The translations under genes were made by a program, and so were the position numbers. Below, in pieces: positions 14,846 to 34,305 of a stretch of DNA of 64,000 nt. How positions within the stretch are numbered: the stretch's first letter is position 1; each line of letters begins with the position of its first letter. The stretch comes from Methanoculleus frigidifontis (GTDB lineage Archaea; Halobacteriota; Methanomicrobia; Methanomicrobiales; Methanoculleaceae). The notes beneath the pieces were generated by a model, which was not told where the DNA came from, ran no database searches, and saw only the letters and a program-made list of their open reading frames with translations. Location: contig NZ_VCYH01000001.1 of assembly GCF_030464345.1 (NCBI RefSeq), positions 434,001 through 498,000 on the forward strand, read 5' to 3'.

Positions 14846-14916
14846 CCGGGAGAGATCCACACCTTTTTGCAGCCGAATTCCCAACCGTTTTCTCCCCTGA
14901 AACCAGATACTTTCTC

Positions 14917-15510
14917 ATGGACGAACCGCTGGAGGAGATCCGGGACTATGTCAGGACGGTCTTCCGCGATGCAGGGGCGCACGGGCTCGACCATGTGCAA
15001 CGGGTCACCCTTCTTTGCGAGGCGCTCGGCGCCCGCGAAGGCGCGGATATGAGCATCCTCATCCCGGCCGCCCTCTTCCACGACATCGCACGGCCGCGTG
15101 AAGAGGAGACGGGCGTTCCCCACGAAGAGGAGGGAGCACGGATGGCGGAGTCCTTCCTCCGGTCGATCGGCTACCCGGATGACCGCATCGCCGGGATCGC
15201 CCACGCCATCCGGGCGCACCGCTACAGCACCGGCATCGCCCCGGAAACGCTGGAAGCACAGATCCTCTCGGATGCAGACAAACTGGATGCGATGGGCGCC
15301 GTCGGCATCGCCCGCACGTTCATGCAGGCAGGGGAGCGGGGAGGAGGCATCGCGGACGCGACCGGCCACTTCCACGAAAAGCTGCTGCAGCTCTCCGGCC
15401 GCATGTACACCGAGAGCGCCCGGGTTCTTGCACAGCGCAGGCACGCGTTCCTCGCGGCGTTTCTCGAGGCCCTCGACGACGAGACGGACGGCACCGTCAC
15501 GCTGCCCTGA
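14917..15510 (+). CDS. HD-domain phosphohydrolase
   Basis: A 197-residue metal-dependent phosphohydrolase of the HD superfamily. The ligands are visible: His26 (GLDHVQRV), His55-Asp56 (LFHDIA) and Asp121 (SDADKLDAMG). The usual GARMAESFLR helix is also present. The closest style is the single-domain archaeal/bacterial HD proteins predicted to act on nucleotides or other phosphoesters; the substrate is unknown. The start is the Met within TTTCTCATGGACG. The frame is open upstream, but that stretch is shared intergenic sequence. A truncated second copy with about 200 bases of similar DNA, including this upstream region, is at about 29468-29690. Confidence 0.9.
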   Translation: MDEPLEEIRDYVRTVFRDAGAHGLDHVQRVTLLCEALGAREGADMSILIPAALFHDIARPREEETGVPHEEEGARMAESFLRSIGYPDDRIAGIAHAIRAHRYSTGIAPETLEAQILSDADKLDAMGAVGIARTFMQAGERGGGIADATGHFHEKLLQLSGRMYTESARVLAQRRHAFLAAFLEALDDETDGTVTLP

Positions 15511-15524
15511 GAGGGTGTTCCGGC

Positions 15525-15533
15525 ACATATATA
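15525..15533 (+). promoter_or_regulatory. TATA box of the potassium channel gene
   Basis: CATATATAC lies 25 bases upstream of the ATG at 15558. The spacing predicts transcription starting at or a few bases before the start codon. Confidence 0.6.
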
Positions 15534-15557
15534 CCCCCGGGAGCGGTGTACACCATA

Positions 15558-16364
15558 ATGGTCTCCGCAACCTCCCGGATAACGATCTCCTTCGCTCTGC
15601 TCGCCCTGATCGTCATCGGCGGCGTTCTCGGAGTGATGGCGACCGAAGGTCTCTCGCTCCCCGACGCCGCCTACTTCGTCATCGTCACCATCGCAACGGT
15701 CGGCTACGGGGACATCGTGCCGCAGACCGGCGCCGGCCGCCTGGTGGCCGCCCTGCTCATCATCGCCGGGGTGGGAACGTTCGTCTCCGTCTTCGCAACC
15801 GTCGTCGAGAGTTTCGTCTCCCGAAACGAGCGCCGGGCGCGCCGCCGGAAGATCACTATGATCGTGGGCGCCTTCTACAGCGAGGCCGGCACCGAGATCC
15901 TCAGGGCTTTTGCCCGTCTCGACCCGGAGGTCGACGCGATCCAGGAGAACCTGGACGTCCGGGGCGACGATTTTGTCCGGGTCCGGCAGTGTTTCGAGGA
16001 GCACCGCTACGGTATCGACGGCAATGTGGCGGACCTTGCAGGGCTGCAGATCCTCCTTGAAGGGAAGAAGGAGTATCTCCTGCGGCTCATGGAGAACCCG
16101 GCCATCTTCGAGCACGACGCCTTCACCGATCTTCTGTACGCGGTCTTCCACCTGCGGGAGGAACTCATGCTCCGCGACAATCTTGCCGCACTCCCCGACG
16201 CCGACCGTGCCCATCTGGCCAGCGACATCTCCCGGGCTTACCGGCACCTGGCACTCGAGTGGCTCGGCTACCTGCAGCACCTGCGCACTGCCTATCCGTA
16301 CATCTTCTCACTGGCAGTGCGGAGAAATCCGTTCGACGATCTGGCGTCTGCGACGATCCGGTGA
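15558..16364 (+). CDS. Two-TM potassium channel with unusual C-terminal domain
   Basis: A 268-residue channel subunit. TM1 spans about residues 7-28. The pore helix and selectivity filter TVGYGD are at 47-52, and TM2 spans about 60-85. After the pore the cytoplasmic part has no RCK Rossmann signature (no GxGxxG). It is a mostly helical domain of about 180 residues with a short basic linker (RNERRARRRK) after TM2. Most prokaryotic two-TM channels of this class (MthK-like) carry RCK domains, so gating here may differ. Four subunits are expected to form a K+-selective pore. The preceding gene is the HD hydrolase; there is no transporter context. Confidence 0.88.
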   Translation: MVSATSRITISFALLALIVIGGVLGVMATEGLSLPDAAYFVIVTIATVGYGDIVPQTGAGRLVAALLIIAGVGTFVSVFATVVESFVSRNERRARRRKITMIVGAFYSEAGTEILRAFARLDPEVDAIQENLDVRGDDFVRVRQCFEEHRYGIDGNVADLAGLQILLEGKKEYLLRLMENPAIFEHDAFTDLLYAVFHLREELMLRDNLAALPDADRAHLASDISRAYRHLALEWLGYLQHLRTAYPYIFSLAVRRNPFDDLASATIR

Positions 16365-16371
16365 CCGGCGA

Positions 16372-16638
16372 TTACACTCCCCGCTCGATTGCCATCCCCT
16401 GCTCGCGGAGTGTCTGCTCGATCCCGTCGAGGAGTTCGGCGTCGCCGAGGGCGTGGTCGAGCATCGGGAATTTGCCCACCAGCGGGATCGCCTTGAAGAG
16501 CGCCACCGGCTGCTTCCCACCGGCCTCGCCGGTATCCCCGGGAGCGACCTGTAGCGCCGTCCCGTCGCTGTAGACCGCGACGTTCCCGTAGCCCTGGGCA
16601 TCCCACAGTTTCCTGATGATATCACGCGTCGTTACCAT
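16372..16638 (-). CDS. Small conserved protein, copy 1 of a duplicated pair
   Basis: An 88-residue soluble protein (MVTTRDIIRKLWDAQGYG ... MAIERGV) of unknown function. It is almost identical to the 87-residue protein at 31820-32083; the differences are conservative (S/A, T/S, A/P, Q/R). DNA similarity continues about 80-100 bases upstream of the start, so gene and promoter were duplicated together. The Met at 16638 is supported by GGTGA eight bases upstream and an ATATAC box just before it, and the same arrangement is kept in the other copy. The longer open frame upstream is not needed. It is convergent with the channel gene. Confidence 0.75.
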   Translation of the reverse strand: MVTTRDIIRKLWDAQGYGNVAVYSDGTALQVAPGDTGEAGGKQPVALFKAIPLVGKFPMLDHALGDAELLDGIEQTLREQGMAIERGV

Positions 16639-17363
16639 AGCATCTTCACCGTATATGCGTTCTTTGCCCCGCTCTTCCATAAAGCCTCGCCTGTCCGGCG
16701 GCAGGTCTACAATCCCTGAAACATTGTTTTCCATCTTCATGTATGAGGAGGGTGTCCGCGGCTTATGTCTTCACAAAGGCGTGCCGCACCCTGCTGCCCC
16801 GTCAACGAATGTCGAAGAGAGGTGTGCGTGATTCATCCGGGCGTCTCGCAGCTGCACGGTGGCAGTCTGCCTCTGCCATTCTGCTGTTTTTGAGCGCTTT
16901 TACATGCTTTCACATCATTTCTGACCGTCTTGGGATTGTCGATTCTCCGGGATGAGCACTGCCTCGAGAGCACGCCCCACGCCTGCTGTCATGCTGGCAT
17001 CAGGTAATTTTGCGTGATACTGTATATGAATCACTTTTATAAAATTAAGGCGGATAAAAAACACGCCAATCGGCAACGGCCCTCTCTCACACCCCTGATC
17101 ACCCTGATCGTGAGGGAAACCTTTATTATATATGAGTCGATCTCTGTTGCGTCCATAAGTATGTCCATAACTATAACGTGGACGGCCGGGGTGTCAGCGT
17201 TCCTTCAGGCCAGGAGCGGATAGGGGCATACTGCACCCGGAGGCAGCGTCGAGACCGGCATTCCTGCAGGATCTCTCCATCATGGCGAAAAGCAGCCTCT
17301 TCAGGGTACCATGTGGTACAAAACTCTCCCGTGAGAGGAGTCACGGGATCATATGGGGGGAAC
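16639..17363. other. Long intergenic region and structured leader before the glycan island
   Basis: No protein gene is supported over 725 bases. Bases 17010-17070 are AT-rich. A strong TATA-like run (CTTTATTATATATGAG, about 17126-17141) points toward the DUF354 gene and predicts a leader of about 200 bases. The leader holds the direct repeat GTCCATAA at about 17151 and 17163, a perfect 14-base palindrome GTACCATGTGGTAC (17306-17319), and a perfect 8-bp stem TCCCGTGA / TCACGGGA with loop GAGGAG (17327-17348) just before the ribosome-binding site. A regulatory RNA leader is possible. Confidence 0.45.
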
Positions 17364-18548
17364 ATGAAAAATCAAAGTTTGCTGCCGAAAAAGACGTCTA
17401 TCGACAGCAATTATCCATCAGGACCCGGCTGTCTGGAGTATGGACAGCCCGTTGGCGGTTTCCCCGCCAGATCACTTCCGCAACCGTATTCTGAAGAATT
17501 CGTCATTCACCCGGCACCCGGTAAACGGCGGATATGGATCGACCTTATCAATCCCTCCGATGTGCTGTTTTTCAATGCGTTGATGCATGACCTCACCGAC
17601 TTCCAGATAGCCGTGACCTACCGGGAACGTGCAGAGACCGTTCATCTGGGGCATTCATTCGGGATTGAAGGGACGATAATCGGAAGAGATGGGGTACGGC
17701 CGGTGAGTAAGATCCTTCTCATGGCGGTTCGGACCGCGCAATTACTCACATCCGCGAACCGTTTCGACGTGTCGATGTCCTTTGAGAACGGAATGAGCAC
17801 ACTCATCTCGAAAGTGCGGGGGAAGACCTCGTTTCAGTTCTGCGACAACGATCTCAAGTTCATCCAGAAGACATCCCTGTACCAGGATCTCGAGACGAAG
17901 ATCAAACTGTCTGCGGACTATCTGGTCATCCCGCGTGCGTGCTCTGATACCTTCGGCAGGTACGTGGACGACGAGAAGATCGTAGTATATGATGGCTACA
18001 AGGAGGACATATACCTCGCAGACTACACCCCGGACGCTCGCTTTCGGGAAAAAGTGCCATACGAACGGTTTGTCGTTGTACGGCCAGAAGCCCTTGACGC
18101 CTTCTATGTGAAAGAGAAGCGAAGCATCGTTCCGGCGATTATCAAAGGCCTGGTGCGCGAAGGAATGAACATCGTTTATCTCCCGCGAAACGGGAGTGAC
18201 CGCCGGCATGTAAACGGCTCCTCGCAGGTATTCATCCCTGACGCCTCGCTCCACGGCCTTGACCTCTGCCACTATGCGGATGCCGTGCTGACCGGATCGG
18301 GGACGATGGCCCGTGAAGCGGCATGCATGGGAAAAAAATCGGTATCGTTCTTCCCGAGCGAGCACCTTCTCTCGGTCGATCGGCAGCTCGTCGACGACAG
18401 ACGCGTCCTCCACTCGCGAGACCCCGAAGAGATCGTGACGCATGTTCTGGATTCCGGGAGACCGCAGCAGCGGGTGGACCGGGATGCGTCACGGCTTGTG
18501 AAGCAGTCGATCCTGAACCAGATGGAGTCGATCCTTGCCGGAGAGTGA
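17364..18548 (+). CDS. DUF354 family GT-B-like glycosyltransferase
   Basis: A 394-residue protein. The DUF354 (PF04007) signature starts after a 50-residue extension: RRIWIDLINPSDVLFFNALMHDL, then TYRERAETVHL. The C-terminal GT-B half carries HYADAVLTGSGTMAREAACMGKKSV, equivalent to the UDP-sugar-binding end of GT-B folds. The family is found in archaeal surface-polysaccharide clusters and resembles UDP-GlcNAc 2-epimerase/GT-B proteins. It is probably a cytoplasmic glycosyltransferase or epimerase-like enzyme. The start at 17364 has GGGGGGAAC upstream. It is the first gene of a tightly packed cluster to 23.6 kb. Confidence 0.85.
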   Translation: MKNQSLLPKKTSIDSNYPSGPGCLEYGQPVGGFPARSLPQPYSEEFVIHPAPGKRRIWIDLINPSDVLFFNALMHDLTDFQIAVTYRERAETVHLGHSFGIEGTIIGRDGVRPVSKILLMAVRTAQLLTSANRFDVSMSFENGMSTLISKVRGKTSFQFCDNDLKFIQKTSLYQDLETKIKLSADYLVIPRACSDTFGRYVDDEKIVVYDGYKEDIYLADYTPDARFREKVPYERFVVVRPEALDAFYVKEKRSIVPAIIKGLVREGMNIVYLPRNGSDRRHVNGSSQVFIPDASLHGLDLCHYADAVLTGSGTMAREAACMGKKSVSFFPSEHLLSVDRQLVDDRRVLHSRDPEEIVTHVLDSGRPQQRVDRDASRLVKQSILNQMESILAGE

Positions 18549-18552
18549 AGAG

Positions 18553-18660
18553 ATGATCGCAGACAAGCCGGTCTCCGGAATCGGCATGCGGGCAGTGCCG
18601 GAACACTCGCCTCTGGGTGCGGAACATCTCGTCCCGGGGCTCGCTGGAGGAGGGCAATGA
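18553..18660 (+). CDS. Possible 35-residue small protein
   Basis: A short open frame (MIADKPVSGIGMRAVPEHSP...) exactly fills the gap between the DUF354 and GT2 genes. It begins four bases after the DUF354 stop behind GAGAGTGAAGAG, and its TGA overlaps the GT2 ATG (ATGA). No family is recognised. The tiling suggests either a real coupled microprotein or the scar of a lost gene. The Gly/Pro-rich sequence without hydrophobic or helical pattern keeps confidence low. Confidence 0.3.
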   Translation: MIADKPVSGIGMRAVPEHSPLGAEHLVPGLAGGGQ

Positions 18661-19601
18661 CCTATATCCTCATCACACCGGTAAAGAATGAAGCTGCAGT
18701 ACTGAAACAGGCTTTTGCCTGTATCCTCGGCCAGACGGTTCTGCCTGCGATCTGGGTACTCGTCGACGGCGGGAGCAGCGACGGCACGCTCGAGCAAATC
18801 CGGGAGCTGCAGGAGCGCCACGCCTGGATATACCTGAAGCAGCAGGAGGCCTTCTCGGCGCGTCAGGGGCACCTGAACTTCGCATTCGGCGTGTGGGAGG
18901 GATACGAGTATGCACGGCAGATCGCCCGTGAGCGGGGCATCGAGTACGACTACGTCGGCAAGACCGATGCAGACGTCCTGCTGCCGGGAGACTTCTTCGC
19001 ATCGCTCATCCGAAGGCTGGAGGAGGATGCCGGGATCGGTGTCGCAAGCGGGGCGTCGTATACGCTCAGGCCTGGCGCTCCCCTTCCCTCTCCCGATGCG
19101 ATCGGCGAAGCCCGGTTTGATCGCGACTACTTCCTGCCCTACGAGATGCCCGACAAACGGGTATACCGCAGAACAGCCCTCGAGCAGATCGGCGGATTCC
19201 CGGTGACGACCTTCGCTCCCGATAGTGTCGCCCTCGCAAAGCTTCTGACCAGTGGATGGCGTGTCGTGTCCTTCGGGGATGTCGGGATCTACAACCTGCG
19301 AAAGGACACATCCATCGAGAAAGACCGCTGGAAATCTTCGCTCCTCCTGGGGTATGAGAGTTACTACCTTGGCTGCCATCCGCTCTACGTGCTCATCAGC
19401 GGGATGTACCACCTGACGTCACCCTCGCAGTACAATGGCTTCGGGCTGATGATTGGCTATGCATCGGCCATCGTGCACCGGGAAGAGAAGATCGACGATC
19501 GCGGCGTGCGGCGGTACTACCGGATCACCCGGTTCGCAAAACTGAACCGTGTCGTTGCAACAGAGGTGCGACGGACGCTATCCCGTTTTCTCGGGAGCTG
19601 A
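18657..19601 (+). CDS. Family 2 glycosyltransferase
   Basis: A 314-residue GT-A fold glycosyltransferase without membrane segments. The N-terminal strand is YILITPVKNEAAVLKQAF. The nucleotide-binding VLVDGGSSDGT follows, then KTDADV (about residues 100-105) as the DxD metal site. FAPDSVALAKLLTSGWR is the acceptor-side ED-like region. It should add a sugar from a nucleotide donor to a lipid-linked glycan in the cytoplasm. A strong GGAGGAGGG precedes the ATG. It sits between the DUF354 gene and the large membrane protein, consistent with surface glycan assembly. Confidence 0.9.
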   Translation: MTYILITPVKNEAAVLKQAFACILGQTVLPAIWVLVDGGSSDGTLEQIRELQERHAWIYLKQQEAFSARQGHLNFAFGVWEGYEYARQIARERGIEYDYVGKTDADVLLPGDFFASLIRRLEEDAGIGVASGASYTLRPGAPLPSPDAIGEARFDRDYFLPYEMPDKRVYRRTALEQIGGFPVTTFAPDSVALAKLLTSGWRVVSFGDVGIYNLRKDTSIEKDRWKSSLLLGYESYYLGCHPLYVLISGMYHLTSPSQYNGFGLMIGYASAIVHREEKIDDRGVRRYYRITRFAKLNRVVATEVRRTLSRFLGS

Positions 19602-19604
19602 TGA

Positions 19605-21539
19605 ATGGGTATCGCATACACGACTGTTGCCATCGACAAAATCGTCGTTCTGCTGGTATTCCTCACCGGCTGCCTGATCTGTGCGGTATCGGTGCAGCAT
19701 CACCTGCAGCAGGAGTACATCGGCGTGACCCTCATCGGCGCGAGCCTTGTTTATCAGGCATTTCGCAGCCGGTTGCTCCGTTCCGGTTTTCCTTCAGAGA
19801 TCTGCCGCTCGAAATCTCGTATGTTCGTCGCCTGCGGCATCGTGTTTGCTCTTCTGTTTACCCTCTCCCTGCTCGTTCTGCGGCTTGAAGCCTACCACCG
19901 GCCCGCAGCCTTTTTCCTGCTGGTATCAGGCATGGCGGCACTCGTGGCGCTGCAGATTATGGGTGCCCGGACCGGGTTGGGTACGCTCCTGATACTGCTT
20001 GAAATCTTCGGTCTTTCTGCCCTCATCCGTTCGAGCCTCTATTATCTCTTCCCTGCTCTGCACGGTGTCGATCCCCTGTACCACTTCGGCCTCGTCACAG
20101 AGATCCTGCAGAACGGTTCTTTTCCCGCTGCCGGCTACGAAGCATACGCGGACTTCCCGCTTACGCATTACCTGCTTGCCGTTCTGGAGAGCGTTGCTCT
20201 CATGGGACTGAAGAACGCCTTCTTCGTGCTGGGCGTCCTGATGATCGTTAGCACACTCTTTGTCTTTCTCATCACCAGAGACCTCTTTCACGTAAAAGCA
20301 GGACTGCTGGCCGTCCTGCTGCTCAATATGTCGAGCTGGCACATCCTGTGGAGCGTCGACATCACCCCGATGTCGCTCGGGACAATCCTTTTCCTGGTGC
20401 TCCTCTTCCTGGTCTTCAGCAGAACGCTCTCCTCGGGCGGACAGTTCTCTCTGGTATCGATTCTCATCTTCTTCATTGCAGCAGTGGTTGTCTGCGTACA
20501 CGTCATCCCGACGATCGTTCTTTTCGTGGCATCCGTCTCGATCCTTGCCGGGGCACTGGCGCAGAGATTCAGCATCAGGAACCTGCGGATTGGAGCAGCG
20601 CAGATCCATCTCAACAGTAAATACGCAGCGTACTTCGGGCTCATCACCATTCTCTACTGGCAGCACGCGTACGGCACCGAAACCCGATCCTTCTATGAAA
20701 AAGTCGTCTTCTCCGTCTATGACTCCCTGCAGGGAGCAGCCATCGGCAATGTCGGAGCCGTGACACAGATTGCAAAGTTCGATCTGCTCCAGATTGTCCT
20801 CGACAACCTCGGGTATGCGCTCCTCGTCGCTCTCATGCTCCTCGGGCTCTTCAGCGTCCTTGCGCATGAGAACTCCCGTGGAACCGGCGTCACGCTGCTC
20901 GTCCTCACCGGCGCCCTCTTTGCGTTCATCTATATCCCCGCTCTCGTCGGATCGAATGCAAGCCTTCCGCACCGCTGGTTTTTATACGCATACGTTCCGG
21001 CATCCATTCTCGCCGCTATCGGCTGCTGGTCGATGCTCGCTATTCTGAAACGGCCGGGGGCGAAGATCGCCGCTATCACCGCCATCGCCCTCTGTTTTAC
21101 GTTCTTCATGACGACGAACTCTCTCGTCAACAGCGACAGTCCCCTCTATCCGAATGTCCGCGAAGATTCCATCACATGGGCACGGGAATACTATTACGAC
21201 TCGGAGGTCTATGCCGGCCGGTTCCTGGCAAAACGCAGTTGTAACGACAACATCGTGACCGACGGGCGGTTCACCAACGTCTTCACGGAATACTACGGCT
21301 ATGAGTGGGTGTATCCCATGTACCCGTCGGATCCGGGCTCCTATGCGAAGGGAGTCGTTCTCCTGCGGGAGAACGTCAGAAACGGCCGCATCGTCGACCG
21401 GCCTACCGGATACGTCTACACCTACGAGAAGGCTCCGAAGGCATTCCTCGACGGGTTCGAGGGAGCCCGGTACACCCGGGCCTACTCGTCGTCGAACGTC
21501 ACGACCTACGTCCCCTGCCCGAGCTATGAGGTGCATTGA
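19605..21539 (+). CDS. Polytopic membrane protein, possible GT-C or glycan polymerase
   Basis: A 644-residue protein with about 12-13 hydrophobic helices over residues 10-500 and a C-terminal soluble domain (about 500-644) that should face outside. Layout and position fit GT-C type glycosyltransferases or O-antigen-polymerase-like proteins. After the fourth helix a loop has HGVDPLYHFGLVTEIL, the kind of Asp/His-rich first extracellular loop seen in such enzymes. I see no definitive OST (WWDYG) motif. The gene starts three bases after the GT2 stop and ends overlapping the deacetylase start. The role in elongating or transferring the glycan is inferred from context. Confidence 0.7.
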   Translation: MGIAYTTVAIDKIVVLLVFLTGCLICAVSVQHHLQQEYIGVTLIGASLVYQAFRSRLLRSGFPSEICRSKSRMFVACGIVFALLFTLSLLVLRLEAYHRPAAFFLLVSGMAALVALQIMGARTGLGTLLILLEIFGLSALIRSSLYYLFPALHGVDPLYHFGLVTEILQNGSFPAAGYEAYADFPLTHYLLAVLESVALMGLKNAFFVLGVLMIVSTLFVFLITRDLFHVKAGLLAVLLLNMSSWHILWSVDITPMSLGTILFLVLLFLVFSRTLSSGGQFSLVSILIFFIAAVVVCVHVIPTIVLFVASVSILAGALAQRFSIRNLRIGAAQIHLNSKYAAYFGLITILYWQHAYGTETRSFYEKVVFSVYDSLQGAAIGNVGAVTQIAKFDLLQIVLDNLGYALLVALMLLGLFSVLAHENSRGTGVTLLVLTGALFAFIYIPALVGSNASLPHRWFLYAYVPASILAAIGCWSMLAILKRPGAKIAAITAIALCFTFFMTTNSLVNSDSPLYPNVREDSITWAREYYYDSEVYAGRFLAKRSCNDNIVTDGRFTNVFTEYYGYEWVYPMYPSDPGSYAKGVVLLRENVRNGRIVDRPTGYVYTYEKAPKAFLDGFEGARYTRAYSSSNVTTYVPCPSYEVH

Positions 21540-22582
21540 TGCAGCAGCGCACTGCAGTGCTGGAGCTGCTCCGGCAGGATACCGACATCTGGGACATCTT
21601 CACCCGGAAAGAGGAGTATGATTCCGGCTTCCGTGACGGCTTCGGCCGCTTTCCGCACTACCTGAGTTCGTCCGGGAGCCCGTTTGAACCCAGCGTCTCG
21701 GAGTACCTGCACGACCGCGGCTACAGGATCGAATATCCGGACGGCCATCCCTTTGCCGTCTGCCTGACGCACGACATCGATACCGTCTATCAGCCCTCCA
21801 TCGCCAAGGCGTATACTGCCCTGCGGTCCCTGAAGTCAGGAGACCTCCCGGGAGGCCTTGCCGGCATTCTGCAGCTACGGTCAAGAAAACTCCCTCTCTG
21901 CAATTTTCGGGATATTATGGCGCTCGAGGAGCAGTATGGCGCAACCTCCAGCTTCTACTTTCTGGCTCTTGCTCCCGGCGACGAGGACTACGCGTACGAC
22001 GTCAGGGAGCTTGAGGCGGAGGTCGGGGCGATCGCCGATGCCGGCTGGGAGGTCGGGCTCCACGGCGGCCACCGGGCATACTGCGACCTGCAGCAGCTGC
22101 AGGCCGAGAAGAAACGGCTGGAGGCGGTTCTCAACCGATCGGTTGTCGGCTACCGGAACCACTTTCTCAGGTTTCAGGTCCCAAAGACCTGGCGGTGCCT
22201 CGCCGAAGCGGGGTTTGCATATGATACCACCTTCGGCTACGCCGACTGCGTCGGGTTCCGGAACGGGATGTGCCACCCGTTCCGGCCCTACGACCGCACC
22301 GCCGGCAGGGAGATCGAGATTGTGGAGATCCCCCTGGCAGTTATGGATGTCACGCTGGACATCTATATGCGGCTTGATGCCCGGAGGGCGTGGGAGATTA
22401 CCCGCCGCATCATCGATGCGGCCGAGCGCTGCCGGGGTGTCGCCACCATCCTCTGGCATAATACGTCCCTGGGAGACGGGCAGCGGAGGTTCTATGAGAA
22501 GATCCTGAAGTACTCTGCGGAGAAGGGGGCATGGATGACGGGCGGTGCGGAGATAGCCCGGGTATGGAGGAACCATGACTAA
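21539..22582 (+). CDS. Polysaccharide deacetylase family protein (NodB-like)
   Basis: A 347-residue protein with the NodB/CE4 layout. FAVCLTHDIDTVY gives the catalytic Asp and metal Asp (residues about 79-82). WEVGLHGGHRAY supplies the metal His pair (about 179-186), and a C-terminal ILWHNT provides a late His. There is no signal peptide, as in several archaeal and XrtA-type EPS cluster deacetylases that act inside the cell or on lipid-linked intermediates. The start is the ATG overlapping the preceding TGA (TGATG). The stop overlaps the FemAB-like gene by eight bases, so the three genes are translationally linked. Expected chemistry is N-deacetylation of a GlcNAc-type residue. Confidence 0.82.
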   Translation: MQQRTAVLELLRQDTDIWDIFTRKEEYDSGFRDGFGRFPHYLSSSGSPFEPSVSEYLHDRGYRIEYPDGHPFAVCLTHDIDTVYQPSIAKAYTALRSLKSGDLPGGLAGILQLRSRKLPLCNFRDIMALEEQYGATSSFYFLALAPGDEDYAYDVRELEAEVGAIADAGWEVGLHGGHRAYCDLQQLQAEKKRLEAVLNRSVVGYRNHFLRFQVPKTWRCLAEAGFAYDTTFGYADCVGFRNGMCHPFRPYDRTAGREIEIVEIPLAVMDVTLDIYMRLDARRAWEITRRIIDAAERCRGVATILWHNTSLGDGQRRFYEKILKYSAEKGAWMTGGAEIARVWRNHD

Positions 22583-23564: not shown

Positions 23565-23656
23565 ATGCAGGCGTCCGGCGAGCTCTTTTCGGTACACGGC
23601 ACGGATATGAAGTAGATAACCCTGGAAGCGAGCAGCAACAGCCGCCGGACGGCGAT

Positions 23657-24832
23657 TTAGCCCGCAGCACCCAGAGTGACTGTCTCTAGAAAACCCTTGA
23701 GTTTCTTCATCTTAACCGACCAGTCAAGGTGCTCTCGGGCATATGTGCGCATCTTCTGTGGGTGATCGGCATCGGCGCAGACCTCGCCGGCGAATGCCAG
23801 AATGCTCCTGATGTCGATGGGGCTTTCGTCGGGAGGAACCCTGAGGATATACGGGAAGTCTGCAGAGAAGTCAGGATCGGCGCATGCCATGATGTACGGG
23901 ATTCCCCGGGCGCAGTACTCCCGCGCCTTCAGTTCGGCCGTCTGCGTCAGCCCTTTCCGGTGCATCCCGAGGCTCCCGACGGCCACATGGCACCGGTCAA
24001 AGAGGGCGCTTAAATCCTCGCCGGCCAGAAACCCGTGGAAGACCACCCGCTCGCTGATGCCGAGGTCGCCGGCCAGGCTCCGCAGGCGGGGGATCTCGGG
24101 GCCGCCCCCGGCGATGTGGAGTGCGATCCCGGGCATCCCGCTGCAGGCGGCAATGCCCCTGATGAGACGGTCGAGACCGTGCCAGCGGCTTACGTTTGCG
24201 ACGCAGAGGATTCGGAGCTCCCCATCGCGCATCGCAGGGGCGTCCCGCTGCGGGACCGAGTCGACGGCAAACCCGTTTTCTATCGTGACATGGGGTATGG
24301 AAGAAGAGCCCGCCCGTTTCACCTGATATGCCGTGATCTCATCGGTAACCCCTACAATGCCGTCGATTTTCCGCCGCAGTATCCTGCCGAAGAGGATGTC
24401 GTGCAGGGCGATGAGATACTCGCCACTTGACCACCGCTCCCGGCTTTCGATGCACTGGAACTCGACAACCAGCCTGCAGCTTCGGGGTCTTTGCAGCGAG
24501 CGTATCGTTGAGATCGAGAGCGGGGGAACCCTGCAGTAGATGACGTCTGTCGGACCGAGCAACGCAAAAAGGTCGCGGAGAGCCTGGTTTATGCAGATGT
24601 CGCGCCGGAGCAGAGCGCCGAGGGTCATGCCCGGATCGCAGGCGGTCTTTGGACGGCTGTAGAAGATCTGATCGGGGGTTACTTCTCCCGGTTCCAGGCC
24701 GGCCCGGTCTCTGAAACTGAATATCTTTGCATCGACGCCCAGGCTCTGCAGGGAGCGTATCTGGGCGATCATCTTCTTCGAGACGCCTGGTTGAGCCTCC
24801 TCGAGCGGTCTTGTGAAATAGACGACCCGCAT
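23657..24832 (-). CDS. Family 4 glycosyltransferase
   Basis: A 391-residue GT-B glycosyltransferase. MRVVYFTRPLEEAQPGVSKKM forms the N-terminal Rossmann start. The C-terminal half carries LRILCVANVSRWHGLDRLIRGIA, ALHIAGGGPE, VVFHGFLAGEDLSALFDRCHVAVGSLGMHRKG and the Glu-type ELKAREYCARGIPYI motif. It should use a nucleotide sugar in the cytoplasm. The start at 24832 is chosen because a TATA box (GTATAAAGAG on the minus strand, about 30 bases upstream) predicts a leaderless transcript; the frame is open further but lies in this promoter. It follows the flippase gene on the same strand. Confidence 0.87.
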   Translation of the reverse strand: MRVVYFTRPLEEAQPGVSKKMIAQIRSLQSLGVDAKIFSFRDRAGLEPGEVTPDQIFYSRPKTACDPGMTLGALLRRDICINQALRDLFALLGPTDVIYCRVPPLSISTIRSLQRPRSCRLVVEFQCIESRERWSSGEYLIALHDILFGRILRRKIDGIVGVTDEITAYQVKRAGSSSIPHVTIENGFAVDSVPQRDAPAMRDGELRILCVANVSRWHGLDRLIRGIAACSGMPGIALHIAGGGPEIPRLRSLAGDLGISERVVFHGFLAGEDLSALFDRCHVAVGSLGMHRKGLTQTAELKAREYCARGIPYIMACADPDFSADFPYILRVPPDESPIDIRSILAFAGEVCADADHPQKMRTYAREHLDWSVKMKKLKGFLETVTLGAAG

Positions 24833-24935
24833 ACAGGAATCTTCAGAGGCACTACTCTTTATACTGGTTGTGGATCCGGCAGCGCCGATCCCCGCTGCGG
24901 AGCGCTGCCATGCCGTTTCTTTCAGTGGGAGCATG

Positions 24936-26309
24936 CTATTCGGCTCCCGGAGTGGGATGGTCGATGATTCGGGCGCTCTCCTCCTTCTCGATCAGGCCTT
25001 TTTCGAGTATGACCATGATTGCGAACCAGACGAGGCCGTATACCGCAACTGCGGCCACCGCCCCGACAAGATTGAATGCCTGCGTGAACAGCACCAGGAG
25101 GGGAAAGTAGACGGCCAGACTCAGGAGGTGAACCTGGAGCGTCATTCTCGGCATCCCGATCGACGCCATTGCAGGCGCAAGAGGAAAACCGAAGATGGCG
25201 ATGATCATTGTCGCCATATAGAGCACCGCGATCGGATACGCCTGAATATATGCCGTTCCGAAGAGGAAGCTGATGACGGGTGCGCCGAAGAGGGCGAACC
25301 CGAGCCATATCCCCGCTGCCAGGCTCCCGGCAACGATCCCCGACCGGATGATGAGGCGTTTGAACTGGACGATCTCTTGTTTTGCCCAGAGATGTGAGAG
25401 ATCCGGATAGATCGCCTGGTAGAGCGGGTCAGAAAGCATTGCGGGTATCCAGCCCAGCTGCTTGGCAATCTTGTAGATCCCCGCTCCCTCTGCGCCGACG
25501 ACGCCGCCGATGAGGATCGTGTCCACCTCCCGCGACCCGAGCAGCACCGAACTGTTCAGGTTCGTCGCCACGAGAAACCCCACGAGGCCGGGCGAGCGGG
25601 CGATGGACTCGTTCAGCGGCGTATTGAGGTATTCCAGATAGCCTCGCCGGGAGAGTTCGCGCCACCCGAGGATCAGGAGCAGCAGGTATCCCGCGACCGT
25701 TGCGACCATCCATACGATAAGGACCAGCCACAGGCCCGCCCCGAGGGCGAGGACGACGAGGATCCCGATGAACCTGATGACCGCCGATACGATGTTCTGA
25801 ACGGCAAAGAGCCGGAACCGCTTGAACAGCCGGAATATGCCGGTCGGGACGCCGGAGAGATTGAAGAGCATGACCAGGCTGTAGAGAGCCGCCATACGCA
25901 CCGTCTCCGGGTTCCAGGCAAACCACTGGCCGAGCAGTACAACAGCAGCAATGGCGATGAGGGTTCCGATGCATGCCGTGGCGAAATCCAGCAGGGTGCA
26001 GAATTTGACGAGACCCATGAACCGGTTGGGTTTCCCGTCTTCCAGTGCCTCTGTGCCGTACTTGATGAGCGCCGTCCATGACTGGAAGTTTACCAGGGCA
26101 TCGATGATGAAGGCAAACGTGGTGATGAGGACGAAGATGCCGAACTGTTCCGGGCCGAGCAGCCGTGCGGTGATGGCATATGTGATGAGACCGAGCACCC
26201 AGGCGACCATGTTGCCGGTGAGAAGCGTTCCGGCGTTCTGAAAGAGATGCCGCAGCAGGTCTTCCTCAAACCACCGGAGTACTCTGCAAAATCCGAGTTT
26301 CCCGATCAT
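24936..26309 (-). CDS. Wzx/MATE-type polysaccharide flippase
   Basis: A 457-residue membrane protein with about 12-14 hydrophobic helices, of the polysaccharide biosynthesis/MVF-type flippase family. Family features include TGNMVAWVLGLITYAITARLLGPEQFGIF near the N-terminus and a mid-protein VDTILIGGVVGAEGAGIYKIAKQLG. Its job would be to move the lipid-linked glycan across the cytoplasmic membrane. The start at 26309 follows GGTGAGG with six bases spacing; an ATG four codons earlier is possible. It lies between a hypothetical membrane protein and GT4, both on the minus strand. Confidence 0.88.
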   Translation of the reverse strand: MIGKLGFCRVLRWFEEDLLRHLFQNAGTLLTGNMVAWVLGLITYAITARLLGPEQFGIFVLITTFAFIIDALVNFQSWTALIKYGTEALEDGKPNRFMGLVKFCTLLDFATACIGTLIAIAAVVLLGQWFAWNPETVRMAALYSLVMLFNLSGVPTGIFRLFKRFRLFAVQNIVSAVIRFIGILVVLALGAGLWLVLIVWMVATVAGYLLLLILGWRELSRRGYLEYLNTPLNESIARSPGLVGFLVATNLNSSVLLGSREVDTILIGGVVGAEGAGIYKIAKQLGWIPAMLSDPLYQAIYPDLSHLWAKQEIVQFKRLIIRSGIVAGSLAAGIWLGFALFGAPVISFLFGTAYIQAYPIAVLYMATMIIAIFGFPLAPAMASIGMPRMTLQVHLLSLAVYFPLLVLFTQAFNLVGAVAAVAVYGLVWFAIMVILEKGLIEKEESARIIDHPTPGAE

Positions 26310-26412
26310 ATGTGCCCTCACCGGCTGTGACGCTCATCGGCGTGCAGACACATGCAGGCTGTCCCGGTGAAACGTTCGCGCCGCATCGATACCTCCCCGT
26401 CTCAGCTCTTCG

Positions 26413-27555
26413 TCAGCTCCGGATATCCCCCGCCTTTCTCTGAACCCTGTCCCGGTGGTCGATCCGTCCTCCCCGGTGACGCTTCAGGAGCGATTGCAGG
26501 GATTCCGCTGCTCCGGAATTTGAGGGCAGATGCTGATCCTCCGGAGACTGCAGGATCTCGTTCAGATTCAGGCGAGGCTGGGATGCTCTGATCTCGCTCA
26601 GGTCCGGGAGTGGCTGCAGGATTTCGTTCATGTCCGGGTGAGGCTGGGAGGATGCCCTGATCTCGCTCAGATCCGGGAGTGGCTGCAGGATCTCGTTCAT
26701 GTCCGGGTGAGGCCGGGATGCCCGAACCTCGCTCGGGTCCGGGAGTGGCTGGGGCGCCGGGGACTCGTGAGAGTGGACGGAGGACGCGGGCATTCTCTCC
26801 ATGAACCGAACCTGGAGGTGAAGCGACCGGTCATCAGGGTTAATCGTCACCCTGTCGATCGTCGTGACCTTCCCCATGCCTTTCGCAAATGCACAGGCGA
26901 CCAGACTGCAGATGGGGCAGGGGGATATCGTGCAGCATTCCGGTTTTTCTGCCCGGGCAACAGCGCAGCCGGAGAAGAGCCGGTAGCCGATGATATCAAC
27001 GAAGACCCGATCGCTGACCTGCCTGCCGGTTACTTGATCCGCAACCTCAAGTGTGTCGGTGAGGATCTCTTTCAGGGCAACAAATATCTGAGATTTCTCT
27101 GATGGGAGGGCGAGAGCATGGTTCTCTTCGAGATGCTTGAGGAGGGGAGCGGCTGTCGGGGGCAGGAGGATGCCGTGGCCGGATCTGTCGGCGGTCAGGG
27201 AAATATCCGGCGGAAGCCCTCCCCCGTCTGCAGGCACAAACTGTCGAACCTCTCTGTCAGGAGGGATAAAGAAGGCATTTCCTTCTGCATTGAGGCCGGT
27301 GCATGCCTGCGAGGCAGCATACGTATACGTGTACGAGGATGCAAGGCAGCTGGCGAGCTCCGGATTGACCGGGTTGTCGCGGCCGAGGGTGACGGCGAAA
27401 GCTCCCCCGACCAGGCAGGCTATTCCTGCGAGGGAGAGTGTGGCTCTCGTAGTGTCCCCTACCTCGGTGAACAGTATGCATAAGAATGCGAGAAGCGCAG
27501 TCGCGAACAGAAGGATTCCCAGAACTCCGGATTTCGGATGCGACAATATACCCAT
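26413..27555 (-). CDS. Hypothetical membrane protein with C-terminal tandem repeats
   Basis: A 380-residue protein with two TM helices near the N-terminus (about residues 9-30 and 38-57). A region of about 190 residues follows that includes a Cys-rich patch (FSGCAVARAEKPECCTISPCPICSL), then a basic tail. The last 110 residues hold three copies of a 22-residue repeat centred on NEILQPLPDLSEIRAS. The family is not recognised. The Cys patch could bind a metal or form disulfides. RBS GGGAG is four bases before the ATG. It sits inside the glycan island, so a role in export or chain-length control is possible but unproven. Confidence 0.65.
   Translation of the reverse strand: MGILSHPKSGVLGILLFATALLAFLCILFTEVGDTTRATLSLAGIACLVGGAFAVTLGRDNPVNPELASCLASSYTYTYAASQACTGLNAEGNAFFIPPDREVRQFVPADGGGLPPDISLTADRSGHGILLPPTAAPLLKHLEENHALALPSEKSQIFVALKEILTDTLEVADQVTGRQVSDRVFVDIIGYRLFSGCAVARAEKPECCTISPCPICSLVACAFAKGMGKVTTIDRVTINPDDRSLHLQVRFMERMPASSVHSHESPAPQPLPDPSEVRASRPHPDMNEILQPLPDLSEIRASSQPHPDMNEILQPLPDLSEIRASQPRLNLNEILQSPEDQHLPSNSGAAESLQSLLKRHRGGRIDHRDRVQRKAGDIRS
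26556..26755 (-). repeat. Three tandem repeats of about 66 bp
   Basis: Three head-to-tail units of about 66-69 bp inside the preceding gene. The shared core on the plus strand reads CTCGCTC followed by TCCGGGAGTGGCTG. Unit 1 is the most diverged. They encode the NEILQPLPDLSEIRAS repeat. Confidence 0.85.
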
Positions 27556-27713
27556 TATTCTCCCTCATGTCTGGTGCCAGGAACGCACCTGGCTGCCGGA
27601 TACACCCTACAAGGATTGGGAGGTAATAAATGTATCTCCTCTTCGCCGCGGGGGCACCCGCAGGCTCAGGGAAAACAGGCCGTTGCCACCGTCGTGTTGC
27701 TGACCTGTCTGGT

Positions 27714-27977
27714 TCACTGAACCGCTCTGAAAATACCTATGGCAACGGCCGCCGAGACGAGCACGATTCCTGCTGCAACAATATATTGCAGGCGGAAAAG
27801 GTATGTCGATCTGACATATCGCGTTTCAGCAAGTTCGGCGATGATCAGAAAGCCCAGAAACCCAAGGAATGGATAGACTTCAGGGGATATGCCGGGCATC
27901 TGCACCGTAAGGTATGCCGCGAGCAGCAGCCAGGCCATGAGCGCGATCAGGGCGCCGTGTCTCTTCCGCAACCCCAT
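27714..27977 (-). CDS. Small membrane protein
   Basis: An 87-residue protein with a basic N-terminus (MGLRKRHG) and three hydrophobic segments (about residues 9-27, 34-50 and 64-84). The family is not recognised. Size and context (glycan island, upstream of the repeat-bearing membrane protein on the same strand) would fit a small accessory subunit, but no motif supports a function. The ATG at 27977 is preferred over the TTG two codons earlier. A TTTAAGTAATATGG box lies about 25-35 bases upstream. Confidence 0.6.
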   Translation of the reverse strand: MGLRKRHGALIALMAWLLLAAYLTVQMPGISPEVYPFLGFLGFLIIAELAETRYVRSTYLFRLQYIVAAGIVLVSAAVAIGIFRAVQ

Positions 27978-28188
27978 CAGCAACGACTGCTAATCCATAT
28001 TACTTAAATTTATCTCATCAGCGGCTCTCCGGTGAAATGGCCGGGATAATCGGGAGGCTGCTGGCTTCCGGAGCCGCAGGCCACGTATTCCGGAAATCAC
28101 ACCGAATCTCGCCGTAAAGCAGTGTCCGGGCGATACTGGCCTCCCTAAACCGGCGGTTTTCAGAGCCCCGGCCTGTGGAAAGGTATAT

Positions 28189-29433
28189 ATGAAACATGCG
28201 CCAGTCTCCTGCATGCTTCATTCCGGGACGGCAGAGGGGCTGAAAGGGCAGACATCCTTCATTGAACTGGTATACGGACACCTCACAGACTATAAGCATC
28301 CCGCCGGTACAAACGAGGAGCACCTGCGGGCGGTGATGGTGTGGCTCTGCAGCGCCCAGGACGCAACCGGGTGCGGGGGTGTCGCTGCAGCCTACTATCC
28401 GTACGTGGGCTGGGCACCCCCCTATCCCGAGGTCACGGGGTACATCATTCCGACGTTCCTGCATTACGCGGCGTTTTCGGGGGACGGCAGATACATCGAA
28501 CGGGCGATCGGCATGGGGGAGTGGGAGCTTTCTATCCAGATGCCGGACGGAGCGGTGCGGGGAGGATGGGGCATCAATGACTACCCGCTTGTCTTCGACA
28601 CCGGCCAGGTCATCTTCGGCTGGCTCTCCCTGTTTGAGAAAACCGGGCGGGAGGAGTTTCTGGCGGCGGCAGTACACGCGGCAGACTGGCTGGCCGACTG
28701 CCAGGACGCGGACGGCAAATGGTCCCGTTTTGTATACAAGAAGATCGCGACGACCTACCACACCCGTGTGGCCTGGCCGCTGCTCCTGGTCTACCGGCGT
28801 ACCGGTGACCCCCGGCACCGGGATGCGGCAGAGCGACATCTCCGCTGGACGCTGGATCAGGTGCACGAGGACGGCTGGATCGACAACATGGGTTTTACGC
28901 AGAGCAGGCCGCCGTTCACCCATACCATCGCCTACACCCTGGAGGGGCTGCTTGAGTCCTCACACTCCGTCCCGGAACCCCTGGCCGGCAGGATCCGCGC
29001 CACCGTCCGGCGGGCATGCGACGCCATCATGGAGAGCTACAACCGCCACTATCCCCTCCCGATGCCCGGGACGTTCTCCCGGGGATGGCGGCCGTCGCAC
29101 CGTTACACCTGCGTGACCGGCGATGCACAGATGGCAATTCTCTTTCTCCGGCTCTATCAGCTCTTCGGCAGTCCGCAATACTCCGATGTCGCTGATCGAC
29201 TGTTGCAACAGATCAAGGAAGTCCAGTGCCGCACCTGTGCGGACGCCGGGATCCGGGGAGGGCTGCCCGGTTCGTGCCCGATCTGGGGAAGGTACCGGCG
29301 ATTCTCGTACCCGAACTGCGGACCGAAGTTCTTCGCCGACGCGCTTATGCTCAGAGAGAGCATCGTGCAGAATCGGTGCATCGATCCCGTCTACCGGCCG
29401 TTTCACGGTGCCCCTTCTGCCGCCGGCTTTTGA
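28189..29433 (+). CDS. Alpha/alpha-toroid protein, possible polysaccharide lyase, hydrolase or epimerase
   Basis: A 414-residue soluble protein built of repeated helical pairs: FLHYAAFSGDGRYIERAIGMGEWEL, then a similar VHAADWLADCQDADGKW, then RHRDAAERHLRWTLDQ. The pattern fits an (alpha/alpha)6 toroid, as in glycoside hydrolases, uronate epimerases and lyases. Conserved-looking His, Trp and Tyr residues (GWGINDYPLVFDTGQV, FTHTIAYTLEGLLES) line where the cleft should be. There is no signal peptide. It is found with deacetylase, FemAB and GT genes, so it probably acts on the same glycan or a lipid-linked precursor. The start is at the end of a GTATATATG box preceded by GGAAAGG; Met 28213 is an alternative. 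Confidence 0.7.
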   Translation: MKHAPVSCMLHSGTAEGLKGQTSFIELVYGHLTDYKHPAGTNEEHLRAVMVWLCSAQDATGCGGVAAAYYPYVGWAPPYPEVTGYIIPTFLHYAAFSGDGRYIERAIGMGEWELSIQMPDGAVRGGWGINDYPLVFDTGQVIFGWLSLFEKTGREEFLAAAVHAADWLADCQDADGKWSRFVYKKIATTYHTRVAWPLLLVYRRTGDPRHRDAAERHLRWTLDQVHEDGWIDNMGFTQSRPPFTHTIAYTLEGLLESSHSVPEPLAGRIRATVRRACDAIMESYNRHYPLPMPGTFSRGWRPSHRYTCVTGDAQMAILFLRLYQLFGSPQYSDVADRLLQQIKEVQCRTCADAGIRGGLPGSCPIWGRYRRFSYPNCGPKFFADALMLRESIVQNRCIDPVYRPFHGAPSAAGF

Positions 29434-29467
29434 TCGCTGGGCCACACCGTCTGACAGTAGAAAAAAT

Positions 29468-29690
29468 ATCATTTTCTCCCGTGATGCCAGATGTCTTTCA
29501 TGGACGAAGCAGTGCAGCCGATCCCGGATCATGCCGGGACGGTCTTCCGGGACGCGGGGGCGCACGGGCTCGAGCACGTCCTGCGGGTCACCCGCCTCTG
29601 TGAAGCGCTCGGCGCCCGTGAAGGCGCGGATATGATCGTCCTCATCGCGGCCGTCCTTTTCCATGGCAAAGCACGCACCTCCCTGCAAGC
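29468..29690 (+). pseudogene. Truncated second copy of the HD hydrolase gene
   Basis: From a Met at 29500 the frame matches the HD protein at 14917 through residue ~55 (VFRDAGAHGLEHV, RLCEALGAREGADM, LFHGKAR). The HD dyad has become HG, and the frame then runs into unrelated sequence. DNA similarity includes about 30 bases before the start (TTTTCTCCC ... CAGAT ... TTCATGGACG). Everything after about 29690 is lost; the 3' end of the FemAB-like gene on the other strand begins at 29720. It is a decayed duplicate, in the same orientation as the intact gene. Confidence 0.8.
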
Positions 29691-29719
29691 GTATGAGAGG
29701 CAGAAGATCTGCGCAGACA

Positions 29720-30730
29720 TTAAACCGGGATCCCATCGCCTCCGGCCAGTGCATTCTTCATCCGGTAGGGCAGCGCAGCCATCTTCGAGAGCAGAACAAC
29801 CCTCGAATAGATCGGTACATGATCTGCCCCGAAGTCTGCTTTTATCCGAAACCGGGTATTGGTCGGGTCAAGTTTCTGCCGGCCGAGGAATATCGTGTCG
29901 TATCCGTTGTTCCACGCCCAGACAAGCCCCTCCCAGAAGAGAGGATAGGTAGGGTGAAAGGTGCCCGGCAAGTTTCGGTTCAGGGAAAGGTACTGAAAAT
30001 ATGCCGTCCTGCCGGCCGGGTGCAGAAAGGTGAGCAGCCCCCCGGCGTAGAGATCACCCTTCGCCAGCGACGTTATCCGCATATCAGCCGGTGAGAACGT
30101 CTCCAGAAGTCTCTGGAAGAAGGAAAGCGGCAGGATATCTCCCTGCATCCGCGTGAGGTTCTCGACGTAGTAGCGGTAAAATTGTTGTATCGCCTCTTCG
30201 CGGCAAATCTCCCGGATTGTAAAGCTCTTCTCATCGAATCTGCGGATGAATTTCCTCTGCCCTTTCTTTGCAGGGAAGCTCTCCCAGATGCTGTCGGGAG
30301 GTCTCTGGCGCAGGTTGAGAATCATGTTGCCGGTATCATCTGCAGGGTAGTGGTCGTATCCGATATGATCCACCAGCGACGCTTCATTCACGTTCAGAAA
30401 AAGATATCTGTATTTTTGCGCGAACAGGGAGAGTATCGCGTTCAGATCATGGGGATTGAAATCGGTATCCAGCAGGATGCTATTGCACTCGGAATACGGG
30501 ATGGGATCCAGCCCTTTCAGAAACGGCAGTCTTCGGGTCTTCGAAGGGAGAATCCCGACTGCTTCCCGGCCTTTGTAGAGTATCCAGTACTTCAGATCGA
30601 GGTTGAGCGCATCCTCGAGCACGCTCTTCCATTTCAGGCTGTGGAAGAACGTCCCCTCCGGGGACCGGTTGTTGAACGATTCCCAGACCGCTGCATTCTC
30701 TTCCGACAGTTCCTGCAGGGAATATTCCAT
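29720..30730 (-). CDS. FemAB-like GNAT acyltransferase, copy 2
   Basis: A 336-residue FemAB/Acetyltransf_6-type protein. GTFFHSLKWKSVLEDAL at the N-terminus, KKGQRKFIRRFDEKSF before the second GNAT fold, and PTYPLFWEGLVWAWNNGYDTIFLGRQ near the C-terminus are family features. It is distantly related to the protein at 22575-23564. It is likely a modifier of the same surface glycan. A TTTTTTATACC box on the minus strand about 25-30 bases before the ATG indicates its own leaderless promoter, so it is not simply part of the upstream unit. Its 3' end abuts the truncated HD copy, suggesting it arrived with, or after, a recombination event. Confidence 0.78.
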   Translation of the reverse strand: MEYSLQELSEENAAVWESFNNRSPEGTFFHSLKWKSVLEDALNLDLKYWILYKGREAVGILPSKTRRLPFLKGLDPIPYSECNSILLDTDFNPHDLNAILSLFAQKYRYLFLNVNEASLVDHIGYDHYPADDTGNMILNLRQRPPDSIWESFPAKKGQRKFIRRFDEKSFTIREICREEAIQQFYRYYVENLTRMQGDILPLSFFQRLLETFSPADMRITSLAKGDLYAGGLLTFLHPAGRTAYFQYLSLNRNLPGTFHPTYPLFWEGLVWAWNNGYDTIFLGRQKLDPTNTRFRIKADFGADHVPIYSRVVLLSKMAALPYRMKNALAGGDGIPV

Positions 30731-31007
30731 GGGGGCTCATGCTCTGTCGGTATAAAAAATACTTTCTCTGCGGCACAGGGTGGACGCCTGCCCGCCTGTA
30801 ATTCCGGCTGGACGGTAGCAGAGCAGTCTCTCCGAACCTCTGTCGACTCGCCGTCTCTGAGCACCTCTCTCCTTGCAGGCGTCCGGCTGCAACGTGCGAT
30901 CTCTTCTCGTTGCTACCGGCGCCCAGGCATCGTCCTTTGTGCAGATTCACCAGCGGAGATGAGGCGGTGCGTCGAAGCACAGGAGCAGGAAAAAGAGGTG
31001 TCAGAAG

Positions 31008-31568
31008 TCAGATCCGTTTCAGCCAGGCTTCCCTCCAGAAGAGCAGGCACGACCTGTCACAGTTATTGTGCCGTTTCCCGTCGCAGTACACCCCCTCCAG
31101 AAATACGGTGGGACTTCTGAGCTTCCGTACTTCACCGTTGGATTCAAGGGTGATTGAGCGCACTTGCTTAAACACGTGGTATTCTTTTCCGCAGAAGGTC
31201 TTCATCTCAGGCATGAAGAGCAGACCTTTGTACTTCCCGTTTTCGTCGAGTGTAGAGCGGATCTCTTCCAGGGATCTGACCCGTACCCTGTCGCCGGGCT
31301 GCAGGTTGAGCACGTCGTCCACGGGCAGATCCCCGGTATGCATGCTGGCTGGTAGATCTTTGGCGTGGGCGGCGACACTTGCAGGAGAGATCACCTGCAG
31401 AATCCGTTTTCCCACCGGAGTGACGTATGGAATCTGTTTCACAGCAGATATCAGAGGAGTCTTGAGTGAATCGTTCCATGCCCTCTGTGTGAGCGATAGA
31501 TATGATGGCCGGGTAAACCCGTATACCTCCTGAACCATGAAGGTGCAGGGTATTGCATGTTCGTCCAT
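31008..31568 (-). CDS. Uncharacterised SH3-like protein with Cys/His-rich tail
   Basis: A 186-residue protein. Residues about 75-130 look like a small beta-barrel (GDRVRVRSLEEIRSTLDENG, then YKGLLFMPEMKTFCGKEYHVFKQV). The C-terminus has VFLEGVYCDGKRHNNCDRSC followed by FWREAWLKR. The spaced Cys-x4-His-x2-Cys-x3-Cys looks like a metal site. I recall similar LEG-V-C-DG-H-C-x-R-C-WREAWL proteins in bacteria near surface-lipid or secondary-metabolite genes, with no proven function. The start at 31568 has GGGGGAAAT upstream. It is the last gene of the glycan island on this side. Confidence 0.65.
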   Translation of the reverse strand: MDEHAIPCTFMVQEVYGFTRPSYLSLTQRAWNDSLKTPLISAVKQIPYVTPVGKRILQVISPASVAAHAKDLPASMHTGDLPVDDVLNLQPGDRVRVRSLEEIRSTLDENGKYKGLLFMPEMKTFCGKEYHVFKQVRSITLESNGEVRKLRSPTVFLEGVYCDGKRHNNCDRSCLLFWREAWLKRI

Positions 31569-31819
31569 ATTTCCCCCATATTTCGTTGGACACCACCGGT
31601 ATACTTCAGGGTCGTGCAGAGTGCAGCCACGCACGCGTGTACCCTTCAGCCAATCGCATGATCAGCAGGAGCCTCCCGGTATATCCGGGTTTCAGGACGC
31701 CATATTATATATTATTTGCTGCGGATGCGCCTCTGTGCTGCTCTGCAGTAGAGGCGGCAGGAAGATCGGTTTCTCTCTTCGCCCGAGCGCCATATCTCCT
31801 CTATTTCTCCTTTCTGCTG

Positions 31820-32083
31820 CTATCCCCGCTCGATCGCCATCCCCTGCTCGCGGAGCGTCCGCTCGATCCCGTCGAGAAGTTCGGCATCGCCGAGGGCATG
31901 GTCGAGCATCGGGAACTTGCCCACCAGGGGTATCGCCTTGAAGAGCGCTACCGGCTGCTTCCCGCCGGCCTCGCCGGCGTCGCCGGGAGGGACCTGGAGC
32001 GCCGACCCGTCGGCGTAGACCGCGACGTTCCCGTAACCCTGTGCGTCCCAGAGCTTTCTGATGATATCACGCGTCGTTACCAT
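31820..32083 (-). CDS. Small conserved protein, copy 2 of a duplicated pair
   Basis: An 87-residue protein, nearly identical to the one at 16372-16638 and lacking only the final Val. The start Met, the upstream GGTGA and the ATATAC box are conserved, and DNA similarity runs to about 32150. Both copies lie on the minus strand and both sit downstream of an HD gene copy on the plus strand (1.3-2.3 kb away). The two loci therefore look like direct repeats around the glycan island. Function is unknown. Strong protein conservation with synonymous differences suggests both copies are functional. Confidence 0.75.
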   Translation of the reverse strand: MVTTRDIIRKLWDAQGYGNVAVYADGSALQVPPGDAGEAGGKQPVALFKAIPLVGKFPMLDHALGDAELLDGIERTLREQGMAIERG

Positions 32084-32239
32084 AGCATTTTCACCGTATA
32101 TGCCCTCTTTGCCCCTCTCTTTGATAAAGCCTCGCCTGTCCCGGCGCCGGAACCGCTCTATTGGAGACTGCCGGAAAGAGGACGCAAAACGAATGGAAAA
32201 GATGATATGCGCATCGGACTGTATTCCTGTTGTGTAACT

Positions 32240-34125: not shown

Positions 34126-34178
34126 ACCTGGCATGCAGCCGGATTCATGCCCGGAGATCTCCGCTCCCCCCGCCCCGA

Positions 34179-34209
34179 TTTTTTTAAAGATTCATACACG
34201 CGATGAATC
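34179..34209 (+). terminator. T-tract terminator followed by inverted repeat
   Basis: Seven T (34179-34185) follow the UbiA gene by about 50 bases. Directly after is the inverted repeat GATTCAT-n7-ATGAATC (34189-34209), related to the two sites upstream of the UbiA gene. It may be an operator for the small gene at 34306 or part of the termination structure. Confidence 0.5.
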
Positions 34210-34305
34210 TTCATCAACGGAATATATGTCTATGACTTCGGAGAATTGTTCAGTGCGTGATGATACCCATCCCGCCAGGTCGTCCCGGAGATATGTGATG
34301 CGGAG

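Follow-up and report, generated by a model that had tools for sequence, protein, structure and literature searches.

How did a methanogen come to carry a surface-glycan gene cluster between two copies of the same pair of genes, and do these copies still act on the cluster? Surface glycans matter for virus attachment. The initial annotation had proposed that the cluster arose by duplication plus insertion, and that recombination between the repeats could still cause its loss or exchange. The window is a 64,000-nucleotide stretch (C1:434001-498000) of a 3.17-Mb genome (G000; 30 contigs, 99% complete, 2.9% contamination). The organism is identified as a methanogen because its genome contains two McrA genes. 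The genus is represented by G000 and one sister species (G001), which provided the same-genus comparison. The search for the block at the family level covered 40 genomes, and HD orthologues were counted in 150 genomes of the order.

Aligned by BLASTN, 14.0-17.8 kb and 28.5-33.5 kb gave two strong, collinear matches in the same orientation. The first pairs 14888-15092 with 29472-29675 (164/205, 80% identity, E 4e-48) and covers the beginning of an HD-domain phosphohydrolase gene (HD) and of its second copy (HD'). The second pairs 16378-16700 with 31823-32146 (292/324, 90% identity, E 3e-125) and covers a gene for a protein of 87-88 amino acids, here called the small gene. Neither repeat has a further copy elsewhere in the G000 genome. 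Upstream DNA is shared as well, about 60 bp for the small gene and about 60 weakly alignable bp for HD. HD' keeps 60 codons followed by unrelated sequence, and its motif has changed from FHDIARP to FHGKART. The arrangement first described, namely direct repeats with a truncated HD copy and an intact small protein, both with their upstream DNA, was thus borne out. In copy 1, HD and the small gene are separated by an ion-channel gene; in copy 2, the genes of FemAB2 and u208 occupy this position, and no remnant of the channel or of the rest of HD was detectable. A simple tandem repeat with a clean insert was rejected, because copy 2 lacks the channel and has been invaded by glycan genes. Of the 150 genomes of the order, 77 have an HD orthologue. 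A conserved functional pairing of HD with the small gene was rejected: 81 kb separates them in G001, and in the other relatives fetched they are non-adjacent.

The limits of the insertion were taken from the comparison with G001, in which HD, the ion channel, the FilR1-like regulator, and UbiA directly follow one another and ~225 bp separate the genes on either side of the island site. BLASTN homology ends at 16367, just past the channel stop codon, and restarts at 32190, 50 bp before the regulator; the insert is therefore 16368-32189, a block of 15.8 kb (Table 1). The small-gene repeats lie within the island, 10 bp from its left edge and ~43 bp from its right edge, and HD' is internal. The claim that a glycan cluster lies between the repeats is correct in essence, but the island defined against G001 includes the small-gene copies at its edges, and the genes between HD' and the second small gene (29720-31571) also belong to the glycan cluster. 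The GC content of the island (58.4%) differs modestly from that of its flanks (62%). Extra DNA relative to G001 is also found at 34126-41350 and 43106-57410, between conserved genes (UbiA, a gene at 41.3-42.3 kb, and a glutamine synthetase at 57411), and the whole region is therefore plastic. The start of HD (14888-14916) is a further synteny breakpoint with G001, the upstream DNA differing between the two species.

Table 1. Features of the island, its repeats, and its flanks (window positions).
Feature	Position	Strand	Basis or remark
Direct repeat 1a, HD 5' part and upstream DNA	14888..15092	+	80% identity to 29472-29675
HD-domain phosphohydrolase, intact native copy	14917..15510	+	PF01966, E 8e-17; G001 synteny
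Ion-channel gene, last before the insertion	15558..16364	+	PF07885; 79-81% identity to G001 orthologue
Inserted block	16368..32189	.	Absent from orthologous site in G001 (BLASTN)
Small protein copy 1, 88 aa from ATG at 16638	16372..16740	-	Family alignment
Direct repeat 2a, island left edge	16378..16700	.	90% identity to 31823-32146
DUF354 protein, glycosyltransferase-like (putative role)	17364..18548	+	PF04007, E 2e-25
GT2 glycosyltransferase	18657..19601	+	PF00535
Membrane GT-C type glycosyltransferase, 644 aa	19605..21539	+	~13 TM by hydropathy; AlphaFold model
Sugar/polysaccharide deacetylase-like enzyme, VimE-like	21536..22582	+	NF053580, E 1e-30, below model cut-off
GNAT/FemAB-like transferase 1	22575..23564	+	PF13480, E 3e-9
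GT4 glycosyltransferase	23657..24934	-	PF13692/PF00534
Wzx-type polysaccharide flippase	24936..26321	-	PF01943, E 7e-23
Membrane-anchored 380-aa protein (u380), no assigned family	26413..27555	-	Homologues in relatives' glycan clusters
Alpha/alpha-toroid protein, glycosidase- or cyclase-like fold	28189..29433	+	PF13243, PF07944
Direct repeat 1b, HD' fragment, inactive remnant	29472..29675	+	60 codons, HD motif lost
FemAB-like transferase 2 (FemAB2)	29720..30730	-	TIGR03019, E 8e-17, below cut-off
u208, FemAB2 partner	31008..31571	-	Inverted relative to eight relatives
Small protein copy 2, intact	31820..32083	-	Protein 94% identical to copy 1
Direct repeat 2b, island right edge	31823..32146	.	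BLASTN; G001 homology restarts at 32190
FilR1-like regulator, first after the island	32240..33067	+	PF08350, E 6e-27; 84% identity to G001
UbiA prenyltransferase, conserved right flank	33214..34125	+	PF01040; 78% identity in G001

The gene families present form what we take to be a surface-glycan assembly cluster, and its products probably build, modify, and flip a lipid-linked glycan destined for the S-layer or a surface polysaccharide. The DUF354 gene likely starts at the ATG at 17364, in the 17178 frame. The 644-aa membrane protein had no Pfam match and no match in the sequence search of solved structures; its AlphaFold model (pLDDT 76) matches AftA, STT3/AglB, and ArnT, with a best E value of 6e-7. 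Homologues of u380 (28-36% identity) were found in 11 fetched cluster loci, and short degenerate tandem repeats (36-82 bp) occupy 26535-26751 at the 3' end of its gene. No integrase or transposase was found among the annotated island genes and no tRNA in the window; a mobile-element origin was rejected on these grounds. The only transposase found is an IS21-like enzyme (Mu-type C domain, rve integrase core) at 61856-63343, 30 kb from the island.

The island block is absent from all 40 family genomes searched; its individual genes have counterparts in clusters dispersed among different species. For the deacetylase, a copy on contig C3 of G001 shares 72% identity. FemAB2 (61-69%) and u208 (66-72%) have linked counterparts in eight genomes, one of which belongs to another family (G121); the pair is divergent in all eight, and the u208 block (30966-31583) is inverted in G000. 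The island also highlights FemAB2-u208 as a conserved glycan-cluster gene pair. On this evidence the island is a mosaic, probably built up in steps. G000 has another VimE-like deacetylase gene, disrupted by a frameshift and stops, near a contig end at L167:9716-10733 (G000 C7:166718-167735).

The divergence of the repeats indicates when they formed. The dS value is 0.54 for HD and HD' and 0.38 for the two small genes, as compared with 0.69 for HD between G000 and G001. The two repeat values are similar (Fisher p 0.41), as a single duplication event would predict, and both are below the interspecies HD value, in keeping with a duplication around or after the species split. By these estimates the duplication is old (dS ~0.4-0.5). 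HD' is 79.4% identical to the HD of G000 and 72.8% to that of G001, and it shares with the former upstream DNA that is absent from G001; duplication of the resident HD is favoured for this reason. Private changes number 22 in HD' and 11 in HD (p 0.08), and dN/dS between the small genes is 0.083. Judged from the sequences, HD' is dead and both copies of the small gene are maintained.

Here, we propose that a resident HD-channel-small segment was duplicated and that glycan genes then accreted stepwise, a reading to which we assign a probability of about 0.55. The ancestral order would have been HD, ion channel, small gene, FilR1 regulator, and UbiA. The HD-channel-small segment would have been duplicated around or after the split of the sister species, most likely in tandem; we infer rather than observe the tandem arrangement, because neither an intact second HD-channel-small segment nor a channel remnant is present. 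Glycan genes may then have accumulated between and inside both copies, the main cluster landing between the first small gene and HD', and the FemAB2-u208 pair standing where the second channel and the remainder of HD' had been. The outcome would be the 15.8-kb mosaic glycan cluster, both edges of which carry an intact small gene, with the dead HD remnant in its interior. The idea of duplication plus insertion is supported: the flanks are joined without the island in G001, the repeats mark its edges, and HD' has its nearest match in the resident HD. The picture of one duplicated pair around one insert is too simple, since copy 2 was invaded and rearranged.

The polarity of this scheme depends on one sister genome, and the island could be older and have been lost in G001. 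According to this alternative, the island was ancestral in the genus and was removed from G001 by recombination between the small-gene copies. The repeats would permit exactly this deletion, and G001 retains a possible small-gene remnant at the site: its channel-FilR1 gap contains a stretch collinear with the 5' end of that gene, a match equalled by only 2-3 of 1558 other G001 stretches. A simple crossover, however, would leave one intact small gene and not a vestige. The repeat dS is below the species-split value, the upstream DNA of HD' is common only to the HD of G000, and none of the relatives examined carries the island here. We therefore regard ancestral presence followed by loss as improbable. 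The match in the gap suggests that the small gene was there before the island.

The family of the small gene (16375-16638 and 31823-32083 in the window) is conserved in many genomes of the order and carries a WDAQGYGN motif; related genes in named records belong to Methanoregula, in keeping with a placement in Methanomicrobiales. The protein had no Pfam or NCBIfam match and no match in the sequence search of solved structures; its AlphaFold model is confident (pLDDT 91.6), and Foldseek against the PDB returned no significant fold match. It is thus a conserved but unnamed protein of the Methanomicrobiales, confidently modelled and structurally without a significant counterpart. In most genomes of a large sister genus (g5) the gene occupies one conserved locus, and in G000 and G001 it lies away from that locus. 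In the tree, both G000 copies group with the gene of a distant genome (G031), and not with the small gene of G001, the branches being long. That G001 gene was rejected as their orthologue: identity is ~55% as against ~80% for neighbouring genes, and it groups elsewhere in the tree, a placement to be read cautiously given the long branches. The G000 counterpart of its G001 neighbourhood is on another contig and holds no small gene. In G031, the small gene may be linked, loosely and in a different orientation, to a channel-like gene. Because of the grouping with the long-branched G031, the small gene itself was perhaps imported.

Import across the small gene by homologous recombination is a fair rival to resident duplication. 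In this Campbell-type event, foreign DNA would have come from a related methanogen, bringing a small gene of its own, part of an HD gene, and glycan genes; its recombination with the resident small gene would have left one small-gene copy at each end. The copies do lie exactly at both island edges, so that a host gene is duplicated at both borders in the same orientation, and a dS of 0.38 is of between-species size. The FemAB2-u208 pair has spread across families (69% identity to the genome of a different family), and the GC content of the island is lower than that of the flanks. On the other hand, HD' is closest to the HD of G000, no donor was found, the block occurs in none of the 40 family genomes, and the small gene is absent from the plasmid and phage collections searched. 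We hold this explanation as a tentative one.

Do the repeats act on the island today? Same-orientation direct repeats flank a surface-glycan cluster, and a crossover between the small-gene copies would in principle delete the block and leave channel-small-FilR1. At 90% identity such an event should be rare: the copies differ at 10% of positions, identical runs reach at most 31 bp in the small-gene repeats and 17 bp in the HD repeats, the repeats are old, and no alternative or rearranged form is known. From the sequences, ongoing recombination or surface switching appears unlikely, and we consider it very doubtful that the island is at present being lost or exchanged through the repeats. The suggestion of continuing surface variation is thus not upheld. 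A related idea, that the small genes at the edges are a recurrent landing and exit point through which homologous recombination brings glycan cassettes in and takes them out, seems to us a long shot; if true, the surface type of a methanogen lineage would change without any integrase.

We compared the island with established classes of variable regions. Like additive surface-glycan islands, the block is absent from the orthologous site of a relative and differs in composition from its flanks. An integrase-type mobile island is disfavoured by the lack of a tRNA in the window and of an annotated integrase in the island. It is not a composite transposon, since the repeats code for part of HD and for a small protein without known family, and a recombinational surface switch would have near-identical repeats, whereas those found here are 90% and 80% identical. 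Several strains with alternative contents at one site are known for the cell-wall-associated genomic island of the haloarchaeon Haloquadratum walsbyi (PMC4535781) and for replacement flexible genomic islands, the latter proposed to be exchanged by homologous recombination (PMC4033161). The present locus resembles both in being a surface-structure cluster that varies between relatives and was likely gained by homologous recombination. It differs in that one island and one empty site are known here, and in the duplicated genes at the island edges, of which there is no mention in the parts of those two accounts drawn on here. As in the N-glycosylation gene clusters of Haloferax, glycan genes vary between close relatives, but the gene set is different and AglB was not identified in the island (PMC5867893); the predicted fold of the 644-aa GT-C protein is distantly similar to AglB. 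Closer counterparts are the glycan clusters of the same family (G001 C2:312-332 kb, G008, G014, G015, G022, G145, and G151) and that of G121 from another family. Up to five gene families are shared with them (FemAB2, u208, the deacetylase, GNAT, and u380), including the FemAB2-u208 pair; these clusters differ in being located elsewhere, with u208 divergent and neither HD nor the small gene in the stretches fetched. Set beside these systems, the island appears to represent a fairly ordinary route to the gain of a surface-sugar cluster, and it offers a readable example of a methanogen gaining such a cluster without an integrase, in which the site is empty in the sister species and duplicated host genes mark the edges.
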